Assembly (NCBI RefSeq): GCF_030693405.1
Contig: NZ_JAUYAW010000009.1
Span: 17,812 to 81,811, forward strand
DNA length: 64,000 nt
Source: Phenylobacterium sp.
GTDB taxonomy: Bacteria > Pseudomonadota > Alphaproteobacteria > Caulobacterales > Caulobacteraceae
Direction: 5' to 3'
Part shown: positions 35,320 to 50,838 of the stretch, one piece after another
How positions within the stretch are numbered: position 1 is the first letter of the stretch
Layout: every line of letters starts with the position of its first letter
Notes under the pieces: model-generated
What the model saw: the letters and a program-made list of their open reading frames with translations, nothing else
Database searches by the model: none
What the model was told of the DNA's origin: nothing
Translations under genes and position numbers: made by a program

Positions 35320-35730
35320 CGCGCGCGTCTTGGCCTGATTCGTGGCGGTGAAGCGCGGCGTGGCCTGGCGCGACGCCAGCCCCCGCCGAGTCGCTATAGA
35401 AAATACGGTATTGTCAAAAAGGGGGCGCTATCGCCTGCGTTACGCCCCGCTTCAATGGGCGCCCTTAGGGAAGCCGGGCGCGCTGGGCCCCCCGAATGTA
35501 ACGTCGGAAGGGGTTACATCAAAGGTTGTAGAAGGCGGGGTACGCTCGCAACCCCTTAAGCCGTAAGGGTTTCGCTACAGAAACTTGCATGACGGTCAAA
35601 TAGTCTGGATATGTCTCCCCGTTGAAAAAATTCTGGCGCTTTTGCAAAAGGTGCCGGATGATCGTTTTTGCTCACGGGTCAAAATCCCCACGCCATAAGG
35701 GGATCGGCGCCAAGAGGGGGAAGGAAACCA
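35320..35730. other. 411-bp intergenic region upstream of TonB receptor
   Basis: No convincing gene; the 74-aa ORF at 35342-35566 lacks a ribosome site and protein-like composition. It contains an inverted repeat TGTAAC-N10-GTTACA at 35497-35518, and an AT-rich stretch from about 35570 that should hold the receptor promoter. I looked for a B12 box or other riboswitch core and did not find one. Confidence 0.5.
35497..35518. promoter_or_regulatory. Inverted repeat TGTAAC-N10-GTTACA, candidate operator
   Basis: Perfect 6-bp arms 22 bp end to end, 213 bp upstream of the TonB receptor start. The symmetry suits a dimeric repressor or activator such as GntR or TetR type; the protein is unknown. Confidence 0.4.
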
Positions 35731-38712
35731 ATGTTGAAACGTACCTATTTCTGCGGCGGCTCGGTCATGGCTGTCGCCCTGGCCATGGGAGCCGCCGGTT
35801 CGGCCGCGGCCCAGGCTCAGCCGACGGTGGTCGAGGAAGTCGTCGTCACCGGCTCATTCATCGCCGGCACGCCGGAAGACGCCGCCCTGCCGGTGGACGT
35901 CCTCGGCGCGGCGGAACTGGAGCGCCAGGGCTCGCCCAGCATCGTCCAGCTGGTCAAGACCATCAGCGCCTCGCAATCCGCGCTCGGCGAAAGCAACCGC
36001 TATAACGGCGGCGCGGGCACCGCGACCATCAACCTGCGCGGCCTCGGCGCCTCGCGGACCCTGGTCCTGATGAACGGCCGTCGTCTGGCCGACTCCACCC
36101 AGGCCGCCTTCCAGGGCGGTGGTCAGGACCTTGGCTTCATCCCCACGGCCGCGACCGGCCGGGTGGAAATCCTGAAGGACGGCGCGGCCGCCACCTACGG
36201 CTCCGACGCCGTCGGCGGCGTTGTGAACTTCATCACCCGCAAGGACCTGAACGGCTTCGAAATCGACGCCGACTACCTGTTCGTGGATGGCTCCGACGGC
36301 GACTACACCCTCGATGTCGCCTGGGGCAGCCTGTTCGACCGCGGCAATGTCCTGCTGACCGCCGGCTACCGCCACCGCTCGCGCCTGGACATCAACGAGC
36401 GTGACTGGGCCCGCACGCCCATGGACGCCGTTTACTACGGCGGCTGGTCGGGCTCCTCGAACCCCGGCTATTACGGCACGCCTGGCGGCACGACCTTCTT
36501 CCGGGACAACGGCTGTAATGAACTTGGCGGCCAGCTGACCGCGGGCGTGGTGCCCACCAGCAACACCGCCACCGGCAGCGTCTGCCGCTTCCAGTTCTCG
36601 GCCTTCAACGATCTGGTGAACGAGGAAGATCACTACCAGCTCTACGGCGAGCTGAACTTCGACGTCACCGACACCATCACCTTCCACGGGGAAGTGGCCT
36701 GGAAGCGCAGCGATGTGCCGAACCAGCGCCTGTCGCCGGCCAACCTCACCACCCAGTTCCCGACCCCGCGGACGGCGGGCGGCACCTCGGGCTCGACGGC
36801 GGTCCCCGGCTTCAACGGCCAGGTTCCGTACTTCGTGCCGGCCACCCATCCGGGTCTGATCGACCTGCGCACCCAGTGCGCGGCCCCGCTCTCCGCCGCC
36901 CAGTGCGCCGGCATGGCTGGCGGCGTGACGATGGCCAAGGCCTTCTGGCGCGCCATCGCCCACGCCGGTCACCCGACCAATCCCGACGGCGCCGACTACC
37001 AGGACATCCAGAACAGCTCTTTCCGGGTCTCCGGCGGCTTCAAGGGTGAGTTCGAGAACGGCATCGGCTGGGATGCGGCTCTGACCTACATGGAGACCGA
37101 ATCCGTCATCGTGACCAACGACCTGCTGGTGAACCGCATCCAGCATGCGCTCAATGGTCTCGGCGGTCCCGGTTGTAACCCGGCCACGGGCGTCCCCGGC
37201 GTCGGCCCCTGCCAGTACTTCAACCCCTTCACCAACAGCATCGCCACCAGCGCGGTGAACGGCGCGGCCAACCCCTACTATCGCGGCGGCGCCAATCCGG
37301 CGGTTCGGAACAATCCGGCCCTGGTGGAGTGGCTCTACGGCACCTACACCAACGTCGGCACCAACAACATCCTGGTGGCTGACCTGGTGTTCAACGGTGA
37401 GACCGGCATCGAGCTGGGCGGCGGCAACATCGCCTGGGCGGCCGGCGGCCAGTATCGCTACAGCCGTTCGCGGGATGACTGGGAAAACCTGGGCGACGTC
37501 CGGGCCACCCCTTGCGTCGACTCCATCGATGACGGTCTGCCGATCTGCTCTGACCCGGTCGGTCCGTTCGTCTTCTTCGGCGCCCAGGAAGACTATGATG
37601 TCGACCGGGACGTCGAGGCCCTGTTCGCCGAAGTCCGTCTGCCCTTCACCGACGACTTCGAAGTCAGCGCCGCGATCCGCCACGAGGAGTTCGGCGGCCA
37701 GGTGGGCTCCACCACCAACCCGAAGATCTCCGCCCGCTGGCAGGCCACCGACTGGCTCGCCTTCCGCGGTTCGGCGGGCACCACCTTCCGCGCCCCTGGC
37801 CAGACCCAGATCTCGCCGGGCAGCAGCAAGGGCGTGTCCAACATCGGCGGCAGCTATCGCGCGGTGGTGACCAACAATAATCCGGGCCTGCAACCGGAAA
37901 CCGCCAAGACCTATAACTTCGGCGTGCTGCTCAACACCGGCGCCTTCAAGGCGTCCGTCGACTACTTCAAGTTCGACTTCGAGGACGAGCTGGTTCTGGA
38001 ACCCACCCAGGCCATCTATGACTCCCTGAACTGCTCGAACGCCGCCATCGTCGCGCGCTTCATCTTCGACGGCGCCTGCTCGCCGGCGAACGTGATCAAT
38101 GTCAGCCGCTTCGTGGTCAACGGTCCCTCGACCAAGACCTCGGGCCTCGACTTCAAGGCGCAGTACGACTTCGACGACTTCTTCGGCACCGACATGGTTG
38201 ACGCCCGCGTCTCCATGGGTGTCGACGGCACCTATCTGCTGACCTATGACCGCAGCGACTTCACCCTGTTCGGGGCCGACAATGTGGTCATTCAGCGGGC
38301 TCAGGACCGGGTCGGCCGCCACGAGCTGACCGGGGAATTCTATTCCTACCCCCGTCTGCGGGCGACCGGCTTCGTCAACGTCAATGGCGGAACCTGGAAC
38401 GTTCGTTACCAGGTCCAGTATCGTGAAGGCACCGAGATCATCGGCGCCCCCTGCCCGGCCAGCGGCGCCAGCGCCGCCTGCCGTTACGATCGCGCCTCGG
38501 CCACCTTCATCAATGTGGGCAAGAGCGACGACTTCTGGCAGCACGACCTGACGGGTCAGATCGAACTGCCCTGGAACACCACCATCAACGCCGGCATCCA
38601 GAACATCCTGGATACCGATCCTCCCTTCGTGCAGTCGATGTACAACTACGACTACACCAACGGGAACCCGCTCGGCCGGACCTTCAAGATCGGCGTCAAG
38701 CAGCGCTTCTAA
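35731..38712 (+). CDS. TonB-dependent outer-membrane receptor (993 aa)
   Basis: The start MLKRTYFCGGSVMAVALAMG at 35731 has a strong GGAAGGAAA site; the track start adds 21 residues. A signal peptide ends near SAAAQA. It is followed by a TonB-box-like VVEEVVVTGSFIAG, a plug domain (VDVLGAAELERQG, INLRGLGASRTLVLMNGRRL, VEILKDGAAATYGSDAVGGVVNFIT) and a large beta-barrel ending in the typical aromatic terminus VKQRF. The length and plug fit the large carbohydrate/oligopeptide class of Caulobacterales receptors rather than classical siderophore receptors. The substrate is unknown. It is monocistronic, ending at a good terminator. Confidence 0.93.
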   Translation: MLKRTYFCGGSVMAVALAMGAAGSAAAQAQPTVVEEVVVTGSFIAGTPEDAALPVDVLGAAELERQGSPSIVQLVKTISASQSALGESNRYNGGAGTATINLRGLGASRTLVLMNGRRLADSTQAAFQGGGQDLGFIPTAATGRVEILKDGAAATYGSDAVGGVVNFITRKDLNGFEIDADYLFVDGSDGDYTLDVAWGSLFDRGNVLLTAGYRHRSRLDINERDWARTPMDAVYYGGWSGSSNPGYYGTPGGTTFFRDNGCNELGGQLTAGVVPTSNTATGSVCRFQFSAFNDLVNEEDHYQLYGELNFDVTDTITFHGEVAWKRSDVPNQRLSPANLTTQFPTPRTAGGTSGSTAVPGFNGQVPYFVPATHPGLIDLRTQCAAPLSAAQCAGMAGGVTMAKAFWRAIAHAGHPTNPDGADYQDIQNSSFRVSGGFKGEFENGIGWDAALTYMETESVIVTNDLLVNRIQHALNGLGGPGCNPATGVPGVGPCQYFNPFTNSIATSAVNGAANPYYRGGANPAVRNNPALVEWLYGTYTNVGTNNILVADLVFNGETGIELGGGNIAWAAGGQYRYSRSRDDWENLGDVRATPCVDSIDDGLPICSDPVGPFVFFGAQEDYDVDRDVEALFAEVRLPFTDDFEVSAAIRHEEFGGQVGSTTNPKISARWQATDWLAFRGSAGTTFRAPGQTQISPGSSKGVSNIGGSYRAVVTNNNPGLQPETAKTYNFGVLLNTGAFKASVDYFKFDFEDELVLEPTQAIYDSLNCSNAAIVARFIFDGACSPANVINVSRFVVNGPSTKTSGLDFKAQYDFDDFFGTDMVDARVSMGVDGTYLLTYDRSDFTLFGADNVVIQRAQDRVGRHELTGEFYSYPRLRATGFVNVNGGTWNVRYQVQYREGTEIIGAPCPASGASAACRYDRASATFINVGKSDDFWQHDLTGQIELPWNTTINAGIQNILDTDPPFVQSMYNYDYTNGNPLGRTFKIGVKQRF

Positions 38713-41500: not shown

Positions 41501-41701
41501 GTCCCTGGTCCCCTGGAATGGAGTTGATTGCGCCTGGCGCGGCTGCCGCAATCGGCCCGGGGGCTAAAAGCTTCAGCATCGCTGCGCAGTGCAGGAATAT
41601 GCCGGTGTTCGCCTCGGGAGCAAGCGCCAAATCACGCCGCCGTGATCACTTTTTTACCCACAGGCTGCGGGCCTTGGTTTTTCAGGGGCCAGGCCCCGGT
41701 A

Positions 41702-42570
41702 TCAGGCCTCGGCGGGGATGGCCGAGAGGGCTTCTTCCAGCTCCAGGAAGCTCGGCTGGGCGGCGGACGGCACATTTCCGCGGCCGATTTCCACCGAGAT
41801 CTGGGCGGCGTTGCCGTGCAGGTGGGCGACGAGCACCGCCTGAATGATCCTGTAGAAGGAGCCCTCCTCCTCGACGACCGCGGTGAGGCGTGACGCAATC
41901 GGTCCCACCATGCCATAGGCGAGGAACACGCCCAGGAAAGTGCCACCAGGGCGCCGCCGATCATCCCGCCCAGAACCTCCGGCGGCTCGGTGATCGAGCC
42001 CATCGTCTTGATGACCCCAAGCACGGCGGCCACGATCCCCAGGGCCGGCAAGCCATCGGCCATGGTTTGCAGGGCGCCGGCCGGGGCGAGCGCCTCATGG
42101 TGGTGCTTTTCGAGCTGCTTCTCCATGGCGTCCTCGACCTGGTGGGGGTCCTCCAGGTTCATAGTCATCATCCGCAAGGTGTCGCAGATGAAGTCCACGG
42201 CGAAGTGGTCCTTGGTGATCTTCGGGTAGCGGGAGAAGATCGTGCTCTCACTCGGGTTTTCAATGTGACTTTCCAGGGCGATGACGCCCTTGGACTTCAT
42301 GGTCTTGGTCAGCAGGAAAAGCAGGGACAAGAGGTCGCGATAGTCGGACGCCTTCCACTTCGGACCTGCAAAGGCCTTGGCGAAGCCCCCCATCACCGCC
42401 TTGATCACCCCCATGGAGTTGGCGATCAGGAAGGCGGCGACTGCAGCGCCGAGGATCGCCATCAGCTCATAAGGCAGGGAATACAGGATGATCCCCATTT
42501 TCCCGCCCGCGAGGATGTAGCTGCCGAACACCATGGCGAACAGCAGAACCAGGCCGATGATCTGAAACAT
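41702..42570 (-). pseudogene. motA: Flagellar motor stator MotA, interrupted by a one-base frameshift
   Basis: The track shows two overlapping pieces: 42570-41632 (N-terminal MotA, then a nonsense tail) and 41929-41702 (true C-terminus). The N-terminal part (FQIIGLVLLFAMVFGSYILAGG, ASDYRDLLSLLFLLTKTMKSKG, PALGIVAAVLGVIKTMG) is a MotA proton-channel subunit. At GGMIGGALV the frame breaks: the expected reading GTFLGVFLAYGMVGPIASRL resumes one frame over. Adding one C on the plus strand near 41943-41944 restores a 289-aa MotA, normal length, ending LELEEALSAIPAEA. Either motility is lost or this is a sequencing error; no slippery site is seen. Confidence 0.93.
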
Positions 42571-45416: not shown

Positions 45417-45524
45417 AAGGTGCTGCAGCCAGGTCGGTGGGGGGGATCACGACCTGACCGGCGCAGGAAGAATGCCCGCCGGGGCCGGGAGTTCCGGAAG
45501 ACCGAAAAAGAACGCGAATCTCCG

Positions 45525-45544
45525 AATAAGAATTAGTCGCAATT
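45525..45544. promoter_or_regulatory. Fur-box-like site upstream of the TonB/PepSY/ApbE operon
   Basis: AATAAGAATTAGTCGCAATT matches most positions of the 19-bp Fur consensus pattern AATGAGAATNATTCTCATT with one offset base. It lies 62 bp upstream of the receptor ATG in an otherwise GC-rich region. Iron-responsive repression is the natural inference; matched by eye only. Confidence 0.5.
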
Positions 45545-45605
45545 GTGTTGCGGGGCGTTCTCGGCCTTGTTACTGCGACCCAATCTCAAGTTCGGGGTTT
45601 CTTCC

Positions 45606-47756
45606 ATGTCCGGTTTCCAGCGCGCCGCGCGCCGTCGTCTCTTCGCCACCGCCCTGGGTCTGACCTTGGGCGCCGCTGCTGCGGCCAGCGCTCAGACCCC
45701 CAGCGCCGCCGATCAGGCCAGCGATGTGGTGGACGTCGATCAGCTGGTGGTCACCGCCTCGGCCTTCGAGCGCAAGATTGTCGATGCCCCGGCCTCGATC
45801 AGCGTGATTTCCCGTGAGGCGCTGCAGACCAAGCGCTTTTCCAGCCTCGCCGAGGCCCTGGCGGACGTGGAGGGCGTCGATGTGGGCGACGGCGTCGGCA
45901 AGACCGGCGGTCTGAACATTTCCATCCGCGGCATGCCCAGCGACTACACCCTGGTTCTGGTCGATGGCCGCCGTCAGAACGCGGCGGGCAATGTCACCCC
46001 CAACGGCTTTGGCGAAACCTCCACCAGCTTCATGCCGCCCACCTCGGCCATCGAGCGGATCGAGGTGGTGCGCGGCCCGATGTCGACCCTCCATGGCTCC
46101 GACGCCATGGGCGGCGTGGTCAACATCATCACCCGGCGCATCGGCGATCGCTGGCGGGCGGCCACCACGGTCCAGGGAACCCTGCAGAGCGACGACCAGT
46201 TCGGCGCCACCTACGGCGCGGAGGCCTATGTGGACGGCCCGATCGTCGCTGATGTCCTGGGACTCGCCCTGCGCGGCAGCGTCTTCAAGCGCGAGGCCTC
46301 CGACCTGTCCTTTGTGAACGCCATCGGTCAGCCCGTCGAAATCTCCAAGCGGGGGCCAAGCCCCGTCGAGGCCGATGTCTGGACCATCGGCGGACGGCTG
46401 AGCTTCGCCCCGGCGGCCGAACACGACCTCTGGCTCGACATCGATGTGGCCGAGCAGACCTATGACAATGCCGAGAGCCAGCTGGGCACCGGGACGGTCC
46501 AGGGCGGCTATGGCCCGGAGCTGCGCTTCGAACGCGAGCAGTACGGCTTGGCCCACGACTGGCGTTCGCCCATTGGCCTGATCACCTCGGACCTGGTGCG
46601 CAACACCACCACCACCATCGGCCGCACCATTCCGCCTGGCACGCCTGGCAAGACCGCTGGCGATCCCCGCACCCTGGAAGCGACCAATACGATCTTCAAC
46701 ACGCGTCTCGCCACCGAGATTGGCCGTCACGCCTTCACGGTCGGTGGTCAGTGGTGGGAGGCCGAGATGGTCGATGGCGTGGCCGTCGACACCTATGAGC
46801 ACACTCAGTGGGCGGTGTTCGCCGAGGACGAATGGCGGCTTGCGGACAATCTGGCCCTCACGGTCGGCGTCCGGCACGACGACCACTCCAAGTTCGGCGG
46901 ACAGACCAGCCCGAGGGCCTATCTCGTCTGGACGGCCAGCGAGGCCTGGACCGTGAAGGGCGGGGTGAGCCGGGGGTTCAAGACCCCCCGCCTTGACCAG
47001 ATCGCCTCGGGCATCACCGGCTTCACCGCCCAGGGTACGGTTCCGACCATCGGAACCCCGACCCTGCAGCCGGAAACCAGCACTACGGCCGAAATCGGCG
47101 TCTATTTCGACAATGGCGCCGGCTTCAGCGCCAATCTGACGGTGTTCAACAGCGAGTTCGAAGACAAGATCGCCTCGGGTCCCGGCCTGCCCAACTGTTC
47201 GTTCGCCGGCAGCCCCAATCGCCCCGGCTGCGTGAACTATGGGAGCTTCCCGCGGGTCGATCTCTATGGCCAGACGGTGAACATCGACGAGGCGGTGACC
47301 CGCGGCGTCGAGGCGGCCGGCCGCTACGCCCTGAACGAGGCCTGGACCGTTTCAGCCAACTACACCTACACCGACAGCGAGCAGAAGAGTGGCCCAGCCG
47401 CCGGCCAGCCCCTGGTCAATACGCCCGAGCACATGCTGAACGGCTCGGTTCGCTGGCGGGCCACCGACAAGCTGAACGCCTGGGTCCGGAGCGAGGTGCG
47501 CTCCGACCGCTACCGCGGCGCGGGCGCCGCCCAGACCGCTTTGGGGGACTACAAGGGCTACGCCCTCTTCCACCTGGGGGGTAGCTATCAGGTGGCCGAC
47601 AAGGTCCGGATCAATGCCACCATCTACAATCTGTTTGACCAGGACTTCCTGGACTACCTGCCCTATGCCAGCGGCGCGACCACGGCCTATGCCGGGGAAT
47701 ACGCCATCCAGCAGGAGCCCCGTCGGCTCTGGGTGTCGGTGAATGTCGACTTCTGA
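45606..47756 (+). CDS. TonB-dependent siderophore-type receptor
   Basis: 716 aa from ATG 45606; the track start adds 21 residues before the signal peptide. Cleavage is expected near AAASAQ. The plug domain carries DVDQLVVTASAFERKIVDAPASISVISREAL, ISIRGMPSDYTLVLVDGRRQN and IEVVRGPMSTLHGSDAMGGVVNIIT, the FepA/CirA pattern, and the barrel ends RLWVSVNVDF. Its length is that of ferric-siderophore or catecholate receptors. It is the first gene of a five-gene operon; its last 14 bases overlap the PepSY gene. A Fur-box-like site lies upstream. The exact ligand is unknown. Confidence 0.93.
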   Translation: MSGFQRAARRRLFATALGLTLGAAAAASAQTPSAADQASDVVDVDQLVVTASAFERKIVDAPASISVISREALQTKRFSSLAEALADVEGVDVGDGVGKTGGLNISIRGMPSDYTLVLVDGRRQNAAGNVTPNGFGETSTSFMPPTSAIERIEVVRGPMSTLHGSDAMGGVVNIITRRIGDRWRAATTVQGTLQSDDQFGATYGAEAYVDGPIVADVLGLALRGSVFKREASDLSFVNAIGQPVEISKRGPSPVEADVWTIGGRLSFAPAAEHDLWLDIDVAEQTYDNAESQLGTGTVQGGYGPELRFEREQYGLAHDWRSPIGLITSDLVRNTTTTIGRTIPPGTPGKTAGDPRTLEATNTIFNTRLATEIGRHAFTVGGQWWEAEMVDGVAVDTYEHTQWAVFAEDEWRLADNLALTVGVRHDDHSKFGGQTSPRAYLVWTASEAWTVKGGVSRGFKTPRLDQIASGITGFTAQGTVPTIGTPTLQPETSTTAEIGVYFDNGAGFSANLTVFNSEFEDKIASGPGLPNCSFAGSPNRPGCVNYGSFPRVDLYGQTVNIDEAVTRGVEAAGRYALNEAWTVSANYTYTDSEQKSGPAAGQPLVNTPEHMLNGSVRWRATDKLNAWVRSEVRSDRYRGAGAAQTALGDYKGYALFHLGGSYQVADKVRINATIYNLFDQDFLDYLPYASGATTAYAGEYAIQQEPRRLWVSVNVDF

Positions 47757-48435
47757 GCAGGTCAGCCTCGGGACGGCGCCTGCCGGGGCTGAGGCCGCCC
47801 AGGCCCGGGCGCTCGCCAAGCGCAAGGCGCAGCGGCGCGCAGGCTTCCTGCGCCAGATTCTGCGCTGGCATTGGATCAGTGCGGCCATCTGCCTGATCGG
47901 CATGCTGCTGTTTGCGATCACCGGCATCACCCTGAACCATGCCGGGTCGATCCCGGCCACGCCGCGGGTGACCGAGCGAACAGCTGACCTGCCCGCTGAC
48001 CTGCTTCCCCTGGTTCAGGCCGCCGAGGCGGAGGAGGCGCCGCTGCCCCAGCCTGTACGGGCCTGGATCGGCGAGGCGCTGAAGGTGCGGGTGCCGGCTG
48101 ACGCCCAGCCGGAGTGGTCGCCGGGCGAGCTCTATCTCGCCCTGCCGCGCCCCGGCGGCGACGCCTGGCTGACCCTCGACACCGCTGTGGGCGAGGCGAT
48201 CTACGAACGCACCGACCGGGGCGTGGTCGCCTACCTCAACGACCTGCACAAGGGCCGAAACACCGGAACGGCCTGGATGTGGTTCCTCGACATCTTCGCC
48301 GTCGGCTGCGTGGTCTTCTGCGTCACCGGCCTGATCCTCCTGCAGCTCCACGCCCACGCCCGCCGGTCCACCTGGCCCCTCGTGGGGGCAGGCCTGGTCA
48401 TCCCCCTGCTGCTCGCCCTGCTCTTCATCCACTGA
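47743..48435 (+). CDS. PepSY-type membrane protein (putative electron carrier)
   Basis: 230 aa. A long cytosolic N-terminus is followed by TM1 (about 43-64, RWHWISAAICLIGMLLFAITGITLNH), a periplasmic domain of about 105 residues, TM2 (about 176-201, WMWFLDIFAVGCVVFCVTGLILL) and TM3 (about 213-229). This is the PepSY-associated TM pattern. Histidines sit at both membrane faces (H43, H66, H169, H203, H205) and could ligate haem b; that is inference. The start overlaps the receptor gene by 14 bp. Position with ApbE and DUF2271 suggests it passes electrons from the membrane to a periplasmic flavoprotein. Confidence 0.87.
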   Translation: MSTSEQVSLGTAPAGAEAAQARALAKRKAQRRAGFLRQILRWHWISAAICLIGMLLFAITGITLNHAGSIPATPRVTERTADLPADLLPLVQAAEAEEAPLPQPVRAWIGEALKVRVPADAQPEWSPGELYLALPRPGGDAWLTLDTAVGEAIYERTDRGVVAYLNDLHKGRNTGTAWMWFLDIFAVGCVVFCVTGLILLQLHAHARRSTWPLVGAGLVIPLLLALLFIH

Positions 48436-48448
48436 CGAGATCGCCCCC

Positions 48449-48964
48449 ATGCGCCGACTTGCTTCCGCCGCCGTTCTCACCGGTCTCATGACCTCGCCGG
48501 CCGCCGCCGCCGAGCTGAACCTTACGGTGGAAATCCCGCGCCTCTCGGTGGCCGAGTACCACAACCCCTATGTGGCCATCTGGGTGGAGACGCCCGACCA
48601 GACGGCGGTGAAGACGCTCGCGGTCTGGTACGACTTCAAGCTGAAGAACCAGGAAGGCGAGACCTGGCTGAAGGATATGCGCCAGTGGTGGCGCCGGGCC
48701 GGCCGCGCCATGGACCTGCCCGCCGATGGGATCAGCGGCGCCACCAAAGCGCCCGGCCGTCATCAGGTGAAGTTCGTCGGCGGCAAGGCGCCGCTGGGGA
48801 CCCTGCCAGCGGGTCAGTACAATCTGGTGGTCGAGGCCGCCCGGGAAGTCGGCGGCCGGGAAATGGTCCGCATCCCCTTCCAATGGCCGCCCAAGGCCCC
48901 CGCGACTGGCCACGCCAAGGGGTCGAGCGAACTCGGCGCCGTGGCGCTGACCCTGAAGCCCTGA
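48449..48964 (+). CDS. DUF2271 protein with ApbE flavinylation motif
   Basis: 171 aa. A signal peptide (MRRLASAAVLTGLMTSPAAAA) is followed by a beta-rich domain: LNLTVEIPRLSVAEYHNPYVAIWVE, TLAVWYDFKL, EGETWLKDMRQWWRRAG. The C-terminal half contains LPADGISGATKAPGRHQ. D93-G-I-S-G-A-T99 matches the D-x-x-[ST]-G-A-T motif in which ApbE links FMN to the Thr, as in NqrC and RnfG. I predict FMN on T99. It lies 13 bp after the PepSY gene and in the same operon as apbE. The motif is read directly; flavinylation is inference from the known family chemistry. Confidence 0.88.
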   Translation: MRRLASAAVLTGLMTSPAAAAELNLTVEIPRLSVAEYHNPYVAIWVETPDQTAVKTLAVWYDFKLKNQEGETWLKDMRQWWRRAGRAMDLPADGISGATKAPGRHQVKFVGGKAPLGTLPAGQYNLVVEAAREVGGREMVRIPFQWPPKAPATGHAKGSSELGAVALTLKP

Positions 48965-48991
48965 ACCCATCCGAGACCGGAGAGACGCGCC

Positions 48992-49810
48992 ATGAAGACC
49001 CTGCTTCGCCCCCTCTGCGCCGCTGCGGCGCTCACCGCCATGCTGGCCGCCCCCATGGCCGCCCACGCCCACCGGCAATGGCTGCTGCCGTCCATGACGG
49101 TGCTGTCGGGGACCGATCCCTGGATCACGGTCGACGCCGCGGTCTCCAATGACCTGTTCATCTTCGAGCACGTGCCCATGCGCCTGGACGGCCTGGTCAT
49201 CACCGGTCCCGACGGGGCGGCCGTGACGCACCAGAACGCGGCCACCGGCAAGTACCGCACGACCTTCGACGTGCAGCTCTCCAAGCCCGGCACCTACCGC
49301 ATCGCCAGCGTCGGCGACGGGGTCATGGCCTCCTACAAGCTGGGCGGCGAGCAGAAGCGCTGGCGCGGGGCGCCTGCCGATCTCGCCACCGCGATTCCCG
49401 CCGGCGCCACCGAGGTGAAGATCACCCACTCCCAGCGCCGCATCGAAACCTTCGCCACCGCTGGCGAGCCGACCACGGAGTCGCTCAAGCCCACCGGCCA
49501 GGGCCTGGAGCTCGCGCCGGTCACCCACCCCAATGACCTGTTCGCTGGCGAGACGGCCCAGTTCCGGCTGCTGCTGGACGGCGAGCCGGCTGCGGGCGTC
49601 GAGGTGGCGGTGATCCGCGGGGGAGGGCGCTACCGCAATGAGCCGGGCGAGATGACCCTGACCACCGCCGCTGACGGCCTGCTGGAGATCACCTGGCCGG
49701 AGCCCGGCATGTACTGGATGGAGGCCGAACTGCGGGGCGGCAAGAGCTCCATTGAGGGCGCCGAGCGGATGGCGGTCTATGTGGGCACCCTGGAAGTCCT
49801 GCCGGAATAG
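48992..49810 (+). CDS. DUF4198 periplasmic protein
   Basis: 272 aa with GGAGAG upstream. The signal peptide ends in AHA, so the mature protein would begin HRQWLLPSMTVLSG, with histidine as its first residue. The domain has Ig-like beta segments: DAAVSNDLFIF, RLDGLVITGPDG, GTYRIASVGDG, then LFAGETAQFRLLLDGEPAAGVEVAVIRGG and GLLEITWPEPGMYWMEAEL. DUF4198 proteins often accompany metal uptake (NikK-like), and an exposed N-terminal His is a possible metal ligand. It follows DUF2271 by 27 bp and ends 5 bp before apbE. Confidence 0.87.
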   Translation: MKTLLRPLCAAAALTAMLAAPMAAHAHRQWLLPSMTVLSGTDPWITVDAAVSNDLFIFEHVPMRLDGLVITGPDGAAVTHQNAATGKYRTTFDVQLSKPGTYRIASVGDGVMASYKLGGEQKRWRGAPADLATAIPAGATEVKITHSQRRIETFATAGEPTTESLKPTGQGLELAPVTHPNDLFAGETAQFRLLLDGEPAAGVEVAVIRGGGRYRNEPGEMTLTTAADGLLEITWPEPGMYWMEAELRGGKSSIEGAERMAVYVGTLEVLPE

Positions 49811-49815
49811 GGCGC

Positions 49816-50838
49816 TTGCACGCACCGCCGCCGGGCGCCCGGGTCGCTGTACCTTTAAGTCTCCCGGCGGATCTTGCGCCGCCGCCGGGCGGCCTCGACG
49901 TGGAGGCGTCAGGCCTCGCCATGGGCGTGACCTGGACCCTGAAGGCCGTCACCCTGCCAGGCCTGGGGCCAGAGGTCCTGGCCCGCACGGTCCAGGGACG
50001 GCTGGACGCCGTGGTGGCGGAGATGAGCCCCTGGGAGCTGTCTTCCCATATCAGCGCCTTCAACCGGGCGCCGGCGGGCGCCTGGCTGGACCTGCCAGAG
50101 GGATTCGCTCAGGTCATGACCTGCGCCCTCGAGATGGCCCGCCTCGGCCAAGGGGCCTTCGACCCGACGATCGGCGCGCTCACCGACCTCTGGGGGTTCG
50201 GTCCCGCCGGTCCGGTGGAGGCGCCGCCGACTCCCGAATTGATCGAGGCCGCCTTGGCGCGGGCCGGGTGGGAGCGCCTGGCGTTCGAGGCCCAACCGCG
50301 GCGCCTGCGGCAGCCTGGGGGCCTGGCGCTGGACCTCTCAGGCATCGCAAAGGGGTTCGGGGTGGATCAGGCCGCCCGCGCCCTGCTGGCCCTGGGCGTC
50401 CGCCATTTCCTGCTGGAGGTGGGCGGCGAACTGCGCGGGGAGGGGCTTAAGCCCGACGGCCTGCCCTGGTGGGTGGAGCTGGAGCGGCTGGAGGGCGAGG
50501 TCGAGGGCCAGTCGCCTGTGGTGCTGGCGCTCTGCGGCCTGTCGGTGGCCACGTCTGGGGACTACCGACGCTACATTATCCATGAGGGCCGCAGGCTGGC
50601 CCATACGCTCGATCCCCGCACCGGCCGTCCCAGCGAGCGCGGCGTGGCCTGTGTGAACGTGCTGGGCCCTGAGGCCATGCGCGCCGACGCCTGGTGCACC
50701 CTGTTGTCGGTGGTGGGAGCAGAAGAGGGCCTGGCGCTCTGCGCGGCCCACGGCATTCCGGCGCGGTTTATGGTCCATACCAAAAAGGGCCTGGAAGAGC
50801 GGCTTTCGCCAGCCTTCCAGGCTCTTCTCGACGACTAG
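49816..50838 (+). CDS. apbE: FAD:protein FMN transferase ApbE
   Basis: 340 aa from TTG 49816, which has GGAATAGGG upstream overlapping the DUF4198 stop; ATG 49921 (MGVTWTLK) is a shorter alternative. ApbE blocks are present: GMGVTW-type opening, AFDPTIGAL, LDLSGIAKGFGVDQAA, LLEVGGELRGEG, SVATSGDYRRYI, AHTLDPRTGRP and ADAWCTLLSVVG. The enzyme takes FMN from FAD and links it to Thr/Ser of target proteins, using Mg2+. I see no signal peptide or lipobox with either start, whereas many ApbE proteins are periplasmic lipoproteins. The neighbouring DUF2271 protein is the likely substrate. Confidence 0.92.
   Translation: MHAPPPGARVAVPLSLPADLAPPPGGLDVEASGLAMGVTWTLKAVTLPGLGPEVLARTVQGRLDAVVAEMSPWELSSHISAFNRAPAGAWLDLPEGFAQVMTCALEMARLGQGAFDPTIGALTDLWGFGPAGPVEAPPTPELIEAALARAGWERLAFEAQPRRLRQPGGLALDLSGIAKGFGVDQAARALLALGVRHFLLEVGGELRGEGLKPDGLPWWVELERLEGEVEGQSPVVLALCGLSVATSGDYRRYIIHEGRRLAHTLDPRTGRPSERGVACVNVLGPEAMRADAWCTLLSVVGAEEGLALCAAHGIPARFMVHTKKGLEERLSPAFQALLDD

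Follow-up and report, generated by a model that had tools for sequence, protein, structure and literature searches.

We describe here a five-gene operon of Phenylobacterium sp. that lies within a 64,000-nt window of contig NZ_JAUYAW010000009.1 (the window is the whole stretch of DNA that was analysed, and all coordinates are positions in it) and encodes, in order, a CirA-type TonB-dependent receptor, a PepSY inner-membrane protein, DUF2271, DUF4198 and ApbE (Table 1). The reading that we favour, with a probability of roughly 0.55, is that the operon responds to iron starvation and serves the reductive uptake of iron. The operon is not new as a kind. Its core corresponds to the "PepSY-like" flavinylation system that Meheust et al. 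described in 2021 (PMC8238504), the description of which already proposes reductive release of siderophore iron and mentions that some clusters are TonB-linked, and the operon is a further case of this system with a supported role in iron. The first-pass annotation of the window is correct in part. It held that the electron donor, acceptor and metal of the TonB-linked form have not been worked out; in our literature search, no published account of the donor, of the acceptor or of the place of flavin loading in this form came up, whereas the form itself and the siderophore-iron proposal are both present in PMC8238504. The metal-binding nature predicted for DUF4198, the absence here of the usual flavodoxin-type reductase and the lack of an export signal in ApbE escaped that annotation. 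The count of 231 "TonB receptor" clusters given there cites PF03544, which in Pfam is TonB_C, i.e., the TonB protein and not a receptor, and the real count of receptor-linked clusters may therefore differ. As annotated, the five genes are tightly packed and run in a single direction, all on the + strand: the receptor and PepSY genes overlap by 14 bp, and the gaps that follow are 13 bp (PepSY-DUF2271), 27 bp (DUF2271-DUF4198) and 5 bp (DUF4198-ApbE).

Iron is likely the metal of the operon because of Fur-like boxes at its promoter, matching sites at feoAB of the same genome and in Caulobacter segnis, and published data on the Caulobacter crescentus orthologue. The two predicted palindromes, CGAATAAGAATTAGTCGCAATTG and TTACTGCGACCCAATCTCAAGTT, rank first and second in the window; the third-ranked site scores 12.0, and the maximum among 50 simulated 64 kb sequences was 18.4. 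Their 47 bp spacing is repeated in the sampled loci L040-L045 and L055. The scores were obtained with a symmetric 23-base matrix, for which 14 promoter sites served as the training set, all from modules of congeners that do not belong to the clade of the window; these sites were chosen by similarity to a Fur-like consensus, and a few of them are weak. Only the trained matrix gives a significant result: the consensus TGCGAATNATTCGCA alone, with 3 mismatches allowed, matched the window twice against 1.8 matches expected. In the 8 kb surrounding feoAB, the matrix finds a single outstanding site 51 bp before feoA (14.9; next 0.8), and the operon, with predicted Fur-type boxes of a motif common to feoAB, is a candidate member of the Fur regulon. 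In C. segnis, the top matrix site precedes PepSY (26.3; next 8.0). It was shown by others that the promoter of the C. crescentus orthologue is positive in a Fur gel shift, that the orthologue is Fur-repressed and that iron limitation raises its expression 12-51-fold (PMC3751524), while transposon insertions in the C. crescentus operon lower fitness in EDTA (PMC11870441). The boxes and these data uphold the annotated choice of iron.

Table 1. Features of the operon and its promoter in the window.
Feature	Position	Strand	Remarks
Fur-like palindrome 1	45523..45545	.	score 22.2, top of 63,978 window positions
Fur-like palindrome 2	45570..45592	.	score 16.4, second in window; 47 bp after first
CirA-type TonB-dependent receptor	45606..47756	+	ATG start; PF00593 2e-57, PF07715 1e-26 (Pfam)
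TonB box DQLVVTA	45738-45758	+	in the receptor
PepSY_TM_like_2 inner-membrane protein	47743..48435	+	PF16357 1.7e-78, PF03929 1.2e-11 (Pfam), both above cut-off
DUF2271, predicted exported flavinylation substrate	48449..48964	+	PF10029 5.4e-51; signal-like N-terminus
Predicted flavinylation site D93-GISGAT99-KAPG103	48725..48757	+	in DUF2271; acceptor Thr99
DUF4198, predicted exported metal-binding protein	48992..49810	+	PF10670 7.9e-59
Mature N-terminal His27	49070-49072	+	follows predicted AxA cleavage site of DUF4198
ApbE, FAD:protein FMN transferase	49816..50838	+	TTG start; PF02424 6.3e-72; no recognisable signal peptide

The arrangement is not a matter of chance, since 161 distinct loci carry PepSY, DUF2271 and DUF4198, almost without exception in that order. 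A comparison of DUF2271 neighbourhoods, which the first-pass annotation had proposed, thus finds PepSY and DUF4198 near-constant and ApbE adjacent in most loci, and the gene order recurs well outside a single genome. In whole-genome searches, DUF2271 was above the cut-off in 19/385 sampled genomes of the class and 65/399 of the phylum, and a named scan gave 536 relatives. The system is common in Pseudomonadota, where it is part of the iron-starvation response.

If the operon serves reductive iron uptake, Fur would leave the two boxes at low iron, allowing expression, as others have demonstrated in the case of the Caulobacter orthologue. A ferric chelate, possibly a xenosiderophore of the catecholate type, would then be imported by the receptor. 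Electrons, most likely from quinol or an unlinked reductase (the usual flavodoxin-type reductase being absent from the genome), would cross the inner membrane via PepSY hemes, held by the conserved H43/H203 on the cytosolic and H66/H169 on the periplasmic side, and would reach FMN on Thr99 of DUF2271, another DUF2271 having been shown by others to be flavinylated. This FMN would reduce Fe(III) in the periplasm, the N-terminal histidine of DUF4198 would receive and hold the divalent metal released by the reduction, and FeoAB may carry it to the cytosol (feoAB is present in the genome, with FeoB found).

The PepSY protein has three predicted transmembrane helices (AlphaFold2 model, pLDDT 95.4), and H43, H66, H169 and H203 mark the termini of helices one and two: H43 and H203 lie on the presumed cytosolic side, H66 and H169 on the periplasmic side. 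H230 is the last residue. In 154 homologues, these histidines are conserved at 99% (H43), 90% (H66), 100% (H169), 82% (H203) and 92% (H230), and the annotated histidines at both membrane faces are therefore present. Their layout fits two bis-histidine hemes, i.e., two predicted heme-ligand pairs, one per membrane face, as in FoxB-type reductases. By fold, the protein was rejected as a FoxB-type siderophore reductase (large periplasmic PepSY domains, at least four helices): it has three helices and no match in Foldseek or, by sequence, in the PDB. A distant kinship to these enzymes, suggested by PF03929, remains, and because no significant structural match was obtained it is drawn from the Pfam match and the histidines. 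Of the proposed electron route from the membrane to a periplasmic FMN, the anatomy holds, as a transmembrane path to a flavinylatable exported protein is present, whereas coupling to the receptor's chelate is weakened by the receptor-free relatives described below.

In DUF2271, the expected flavinylation motif was located as D93-G-I-S-G-A-T99. Thr or Ser occupies position 99 in 160/160 homologues and Asp93 is found in 147/150 operon-type proteins; of the latter, only 85/150 match the published [ST]GA[ST] motif exactly, SGPT, SAAT and SSAT being common. The nearest solved structure to the ApbE of the window is 5mgy (5.2e-59). No hydrophobic leader from any in-frame start, export signal or lipobox was found in this ApbE, which distinguishes it from secreted ApbEs, and by the same hydrophobicity heuristic, passed by DUF4198 in 108/108 cases and by DUF2271 in 83/108 (the leader of the window DUF2271 being weak, 1.69-1.91), a recognisable leader is missing from 106/108 non-fused operon ApbEs. 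The term "periplasmic", used in the first-pass annotation for the whole module, therefore suits DUF2271 and DUF4198 and cannot be safely applied to ApbE. The operon ApbE is the sole ApbE in 15/18 Phenylobacterium genomes. The number of cysteines per 100 residues (1.18 in operon ApbEs and 0.9 in exported fused ApbEs) does not discriminate between locations, and Tat export of DUF2271 was discarded as a solution, the RRxPhi motif being found in only 11/101. An N-terminal motif of the type R-V-x-V-P occurs in 80/111 leaderless operon ApbEs (49816-49920 in the window). According to a 2025 review, a secreted ApbE had to be located in the periplasm in order to function; the review also names cytosolic ApbEs that serve fumarate reductases of the soluble or fused kind (PMC12052999). 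We tentatively suggest, while considering the odds to be somewhat against it, that the ApbE of this operon family is cytosolic and loads FMN on DUF2271 before export, unlike secreted ApbEs, and that electrons in Phenylobacterium come from a source other than a flavodoxin-type reductase. If true, FMN loading before export changes where periplasmic flavinylation can occur.

Elsewhere, the module is often accompanied by a flavodoxin-type reductase whose N-terminus includes a hydrophobic stretch, CC_3063 of C. crescentus being an example; the flavodoxin domain was found in 10/10 and the NAD-binding domain in 9/10 of the scanned module reductases. This reductase is missing from all 24 sampled Phenylobacterium loci and from the window, and distant or unlinked homologues are present in three or four congeners. 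An NAD-binding match on contig C48 was dismissed as the donor: it is an FAD/NAD/2Fe-2S protein truncated where the contig stops, with no flavodoxin domain and no nearby Fur-like site.

The receptor has a signal-like N-terminus, and its nearest solved structure is CirA (2hdf, 5.5e-92, over nearly the whole length). Its score of 354 bits falls short of the 745 required for the CirA equivalog in NCBIfam, and no ligand can be assigned to it for this reason; it is also below the cut-off of every named receptor listed. In Caulobacterales, the receptor immediately precedes PepSY in at least 6 of 27 modules (L040-L065 and the window, 25 of them from the window's genus), such receptor counts being lower bounds obtained with a profile built from the receptor's own family. 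In two congeners (L041 and L043), the operon occupies the window's own site, with the same neighbours and the same two boxes and with the receptor missing. A tree of the four other operon proteins places these two loci among receptor carriers (relevant supports 70-100), and the receptor was therefore probably lost in them, inside the clade to which the window belongs. Several further loci, genus-g20 members of the family among them, have a Fur-like site between the receptor and PepSY, and the receptor is therefore probably a separate unit there. The receptor is a removable add-on and not an integral part of the module, and reduction thus need not depend on its ligand. A 689-aa open reading frame (ORF) before PepSY in L197 was considered as a divergent receptor and ruled out, as it has no Pfam domain. 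Another TonB-dependent receptor-like ORF of the window (35668-38712, + strand; 1014 aa) is unrelated to the receptor of the operon.

DUF4198 is predicted to be a metal-binding protein from its fold and N-terminal histidine. Its AlphaFold2 model (pLDDT 95) matches both Zcp (9mhj, 1.9e-14), whose structures were determined with Zn, Cu and Co, and IsDUF4198 in the Ni-bound state (9gcb_A, 2.3e-8); IsDUF4198 binds Ni via its N-terminal histidine with a Kd of 18 nM (PMC12537917). With this fold and His27 following the AxA site, the protein has the traits of an N-terminal-histidine metalloprotein; His27 is conserved in 156/156 homologues, His179 in 98% and His60 in 87%.

The removable receptor bears directly on the possibility that the four inner genes constitute a general periplasmic ferric reductase for iron of any source, the receptor being co-regulated cargo whose ligand is not a specific substrate. 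We consider this rather unlikely, despite the scarcity of receptors directly upstream, the two congeners that keep the module and both boxes without one, the Fur-like site between receptor and PepSY in Brevundimonas-like loci, and the C. crescentus operon, which is receptor-free yet matters in EDTA (PMC11870441). Against it, Stutzerimonas and Pseudomonas have, at the same position, a receptor 50-57% identical to that of the window, suggesting selection for the pairing, and HiuB, another PepSY protein adjoining a TonB receptor, works with the ligands of that receptor, being required for ferrioxamine and ferrichrome use (PMC13001220). Another metal, i.e., nickel, zinc or copper, that the module would reduce or capture is a very improbable substitute for iron. 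The nickel affinity of IsDUF4198 and the metals of Zcp would suit it, as would CrpH, another PepSY_TM protein, which adjoins a copper receptor (PMC13038864), and the decrease of CC3060/CC3061 in a zur mutant (PMC4176598), but the Fur-like boxes are common to feoAB, the orthologue shows a Fur gel shift and an iron response (PMC3751524), and the receptor is nearest to CirA.

It is also conceivable, though highly unlikely in our view, that DUF2271 is not flavinylated in vivo, ApbE staying in the cytosol with a cytosolic target and PepSY acting as the direct reductant of the chelate, the role proposed for FoxB. This would agree with the lack of a signal peptide in 106/108 comparable operon ApbEs, the absence of a second ApbE in 15/18 Phenylobacterium genomes, the inexact [ST]GA[ST] motif in many DUF2271 proteins and a known cytosolic ApbE that serves a cytosolic fumarate reductase (PMC12052999). 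The invariant Thr/Ser acceptor, the near-invariant Asp93 and the proximity of ApbE and DUF2271 in most loci argue for flavinylation instead, and PMC8238504 reports a DUF2271 flavinylated inside E. coli by its cognate ApbE, both without leaders. Several observations nevertheless weigh against the iron-uptake reading that we prefer. Most relatives have no receptor directly upstream and two congeners lost it, so that coupling to the receptor's ligand is weakly supported. The PepSY model gave no Foldseek match to solved structures at E <= 0.001. A homologue of the flavodoxin-type reductase is absent from the genome of the window (99.95% complete), 7/7 positive controls outside the genus being matched, and the electron donor here is therefore something else. 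The absence of an export signal in ApbE leaves flavin loading of exported DUF2271 unexplained. Finally, IsDUF4198 prefers Ni in vitro, iron not being among the metals compared (PMC12537917).

The same genome carries, on contig C54 (L003, 2248-8378), a second DUF2271/DUF4198/ApbE set, which adjoins a heme-type TonB receptor (TIGR01786 above cut-off), includes DUF6607, an EF-hand protein and a second DUF4198 with a mature N-terminal histidine, has three Fur-like sites and corresponds by gene content to the CC2193-CC2194 region of C. crescentus. A divergent gene of this set encodes an ApbE-DUF2271 fusion with a signal-like leader and without [ST]GA[ST], and an exported form of ApbE therefore coexists with the leaderless ApbE in one genome. 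In the window, motA (41632-42570, - strand) appears frameshifted, as MotA of a congener aligns in two frames with a break near 41911-41944; this could reflect either a mistake in the assembly or a true lesion.

The operon can be compared with several known systems. With HiuABC of C. crescentus (PMC13001220) and FoxB of Pseudomonas aeruginosa it shares a TonB receptor adjoining a PepSY inner-membrane protein and conserved histidines at both membrane faces, whereas HiuB and FoxB are larger PepSY-domain proteins without DUF2271, DUF4198 and ApbE, and for the three-helix PepSY of the window no solved PepSY protein of similar fold was detected. With the catecholate receptor CirA, the window receptor shares plug and barrel. 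DUF4198 has the fold of IsDUF4198 (PDB 9GCB) and Zcp (PDB 9MHI-9MHO) and a mature N-terminal histidine as in IsDUF4198, and differs from both in its identity of ~16-17%, its iron context and the candidates for a second ligand, H60 or H179. The operon is a compact case for three questions: the substitute donor, capture of the reduced metal by DUF4198 and the action of a leaderless ApbE on an exported protein. The likeness is closest to the PepSY-like system described in PMC8238504 (CC_3059-3063 = CCNA_03155-03159 in Caulobacter), with the same order of PepSY, DUF2271, DUF4198 and ApbE, Fur-type regulation, proposed iron reduction and, in some clusters, TonB genes. The window has its hallmarks, i.e., a PF16357/PF03929 PepSY protein clustered with ApbE and with a DUF2271 bearing the acceptor motif DGISGAT, the signal peptide that may be on either ApbE or DUF2271 being on DUF2271, weakly by hydrophobicity. 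In contrast to the Caulobacter operon, that of the window includes the receptor and has no flavodoxin-type reductase gene like CC_3063. Its ApbE has no recognisable signal peptide, a trait of most sampled members of the family.

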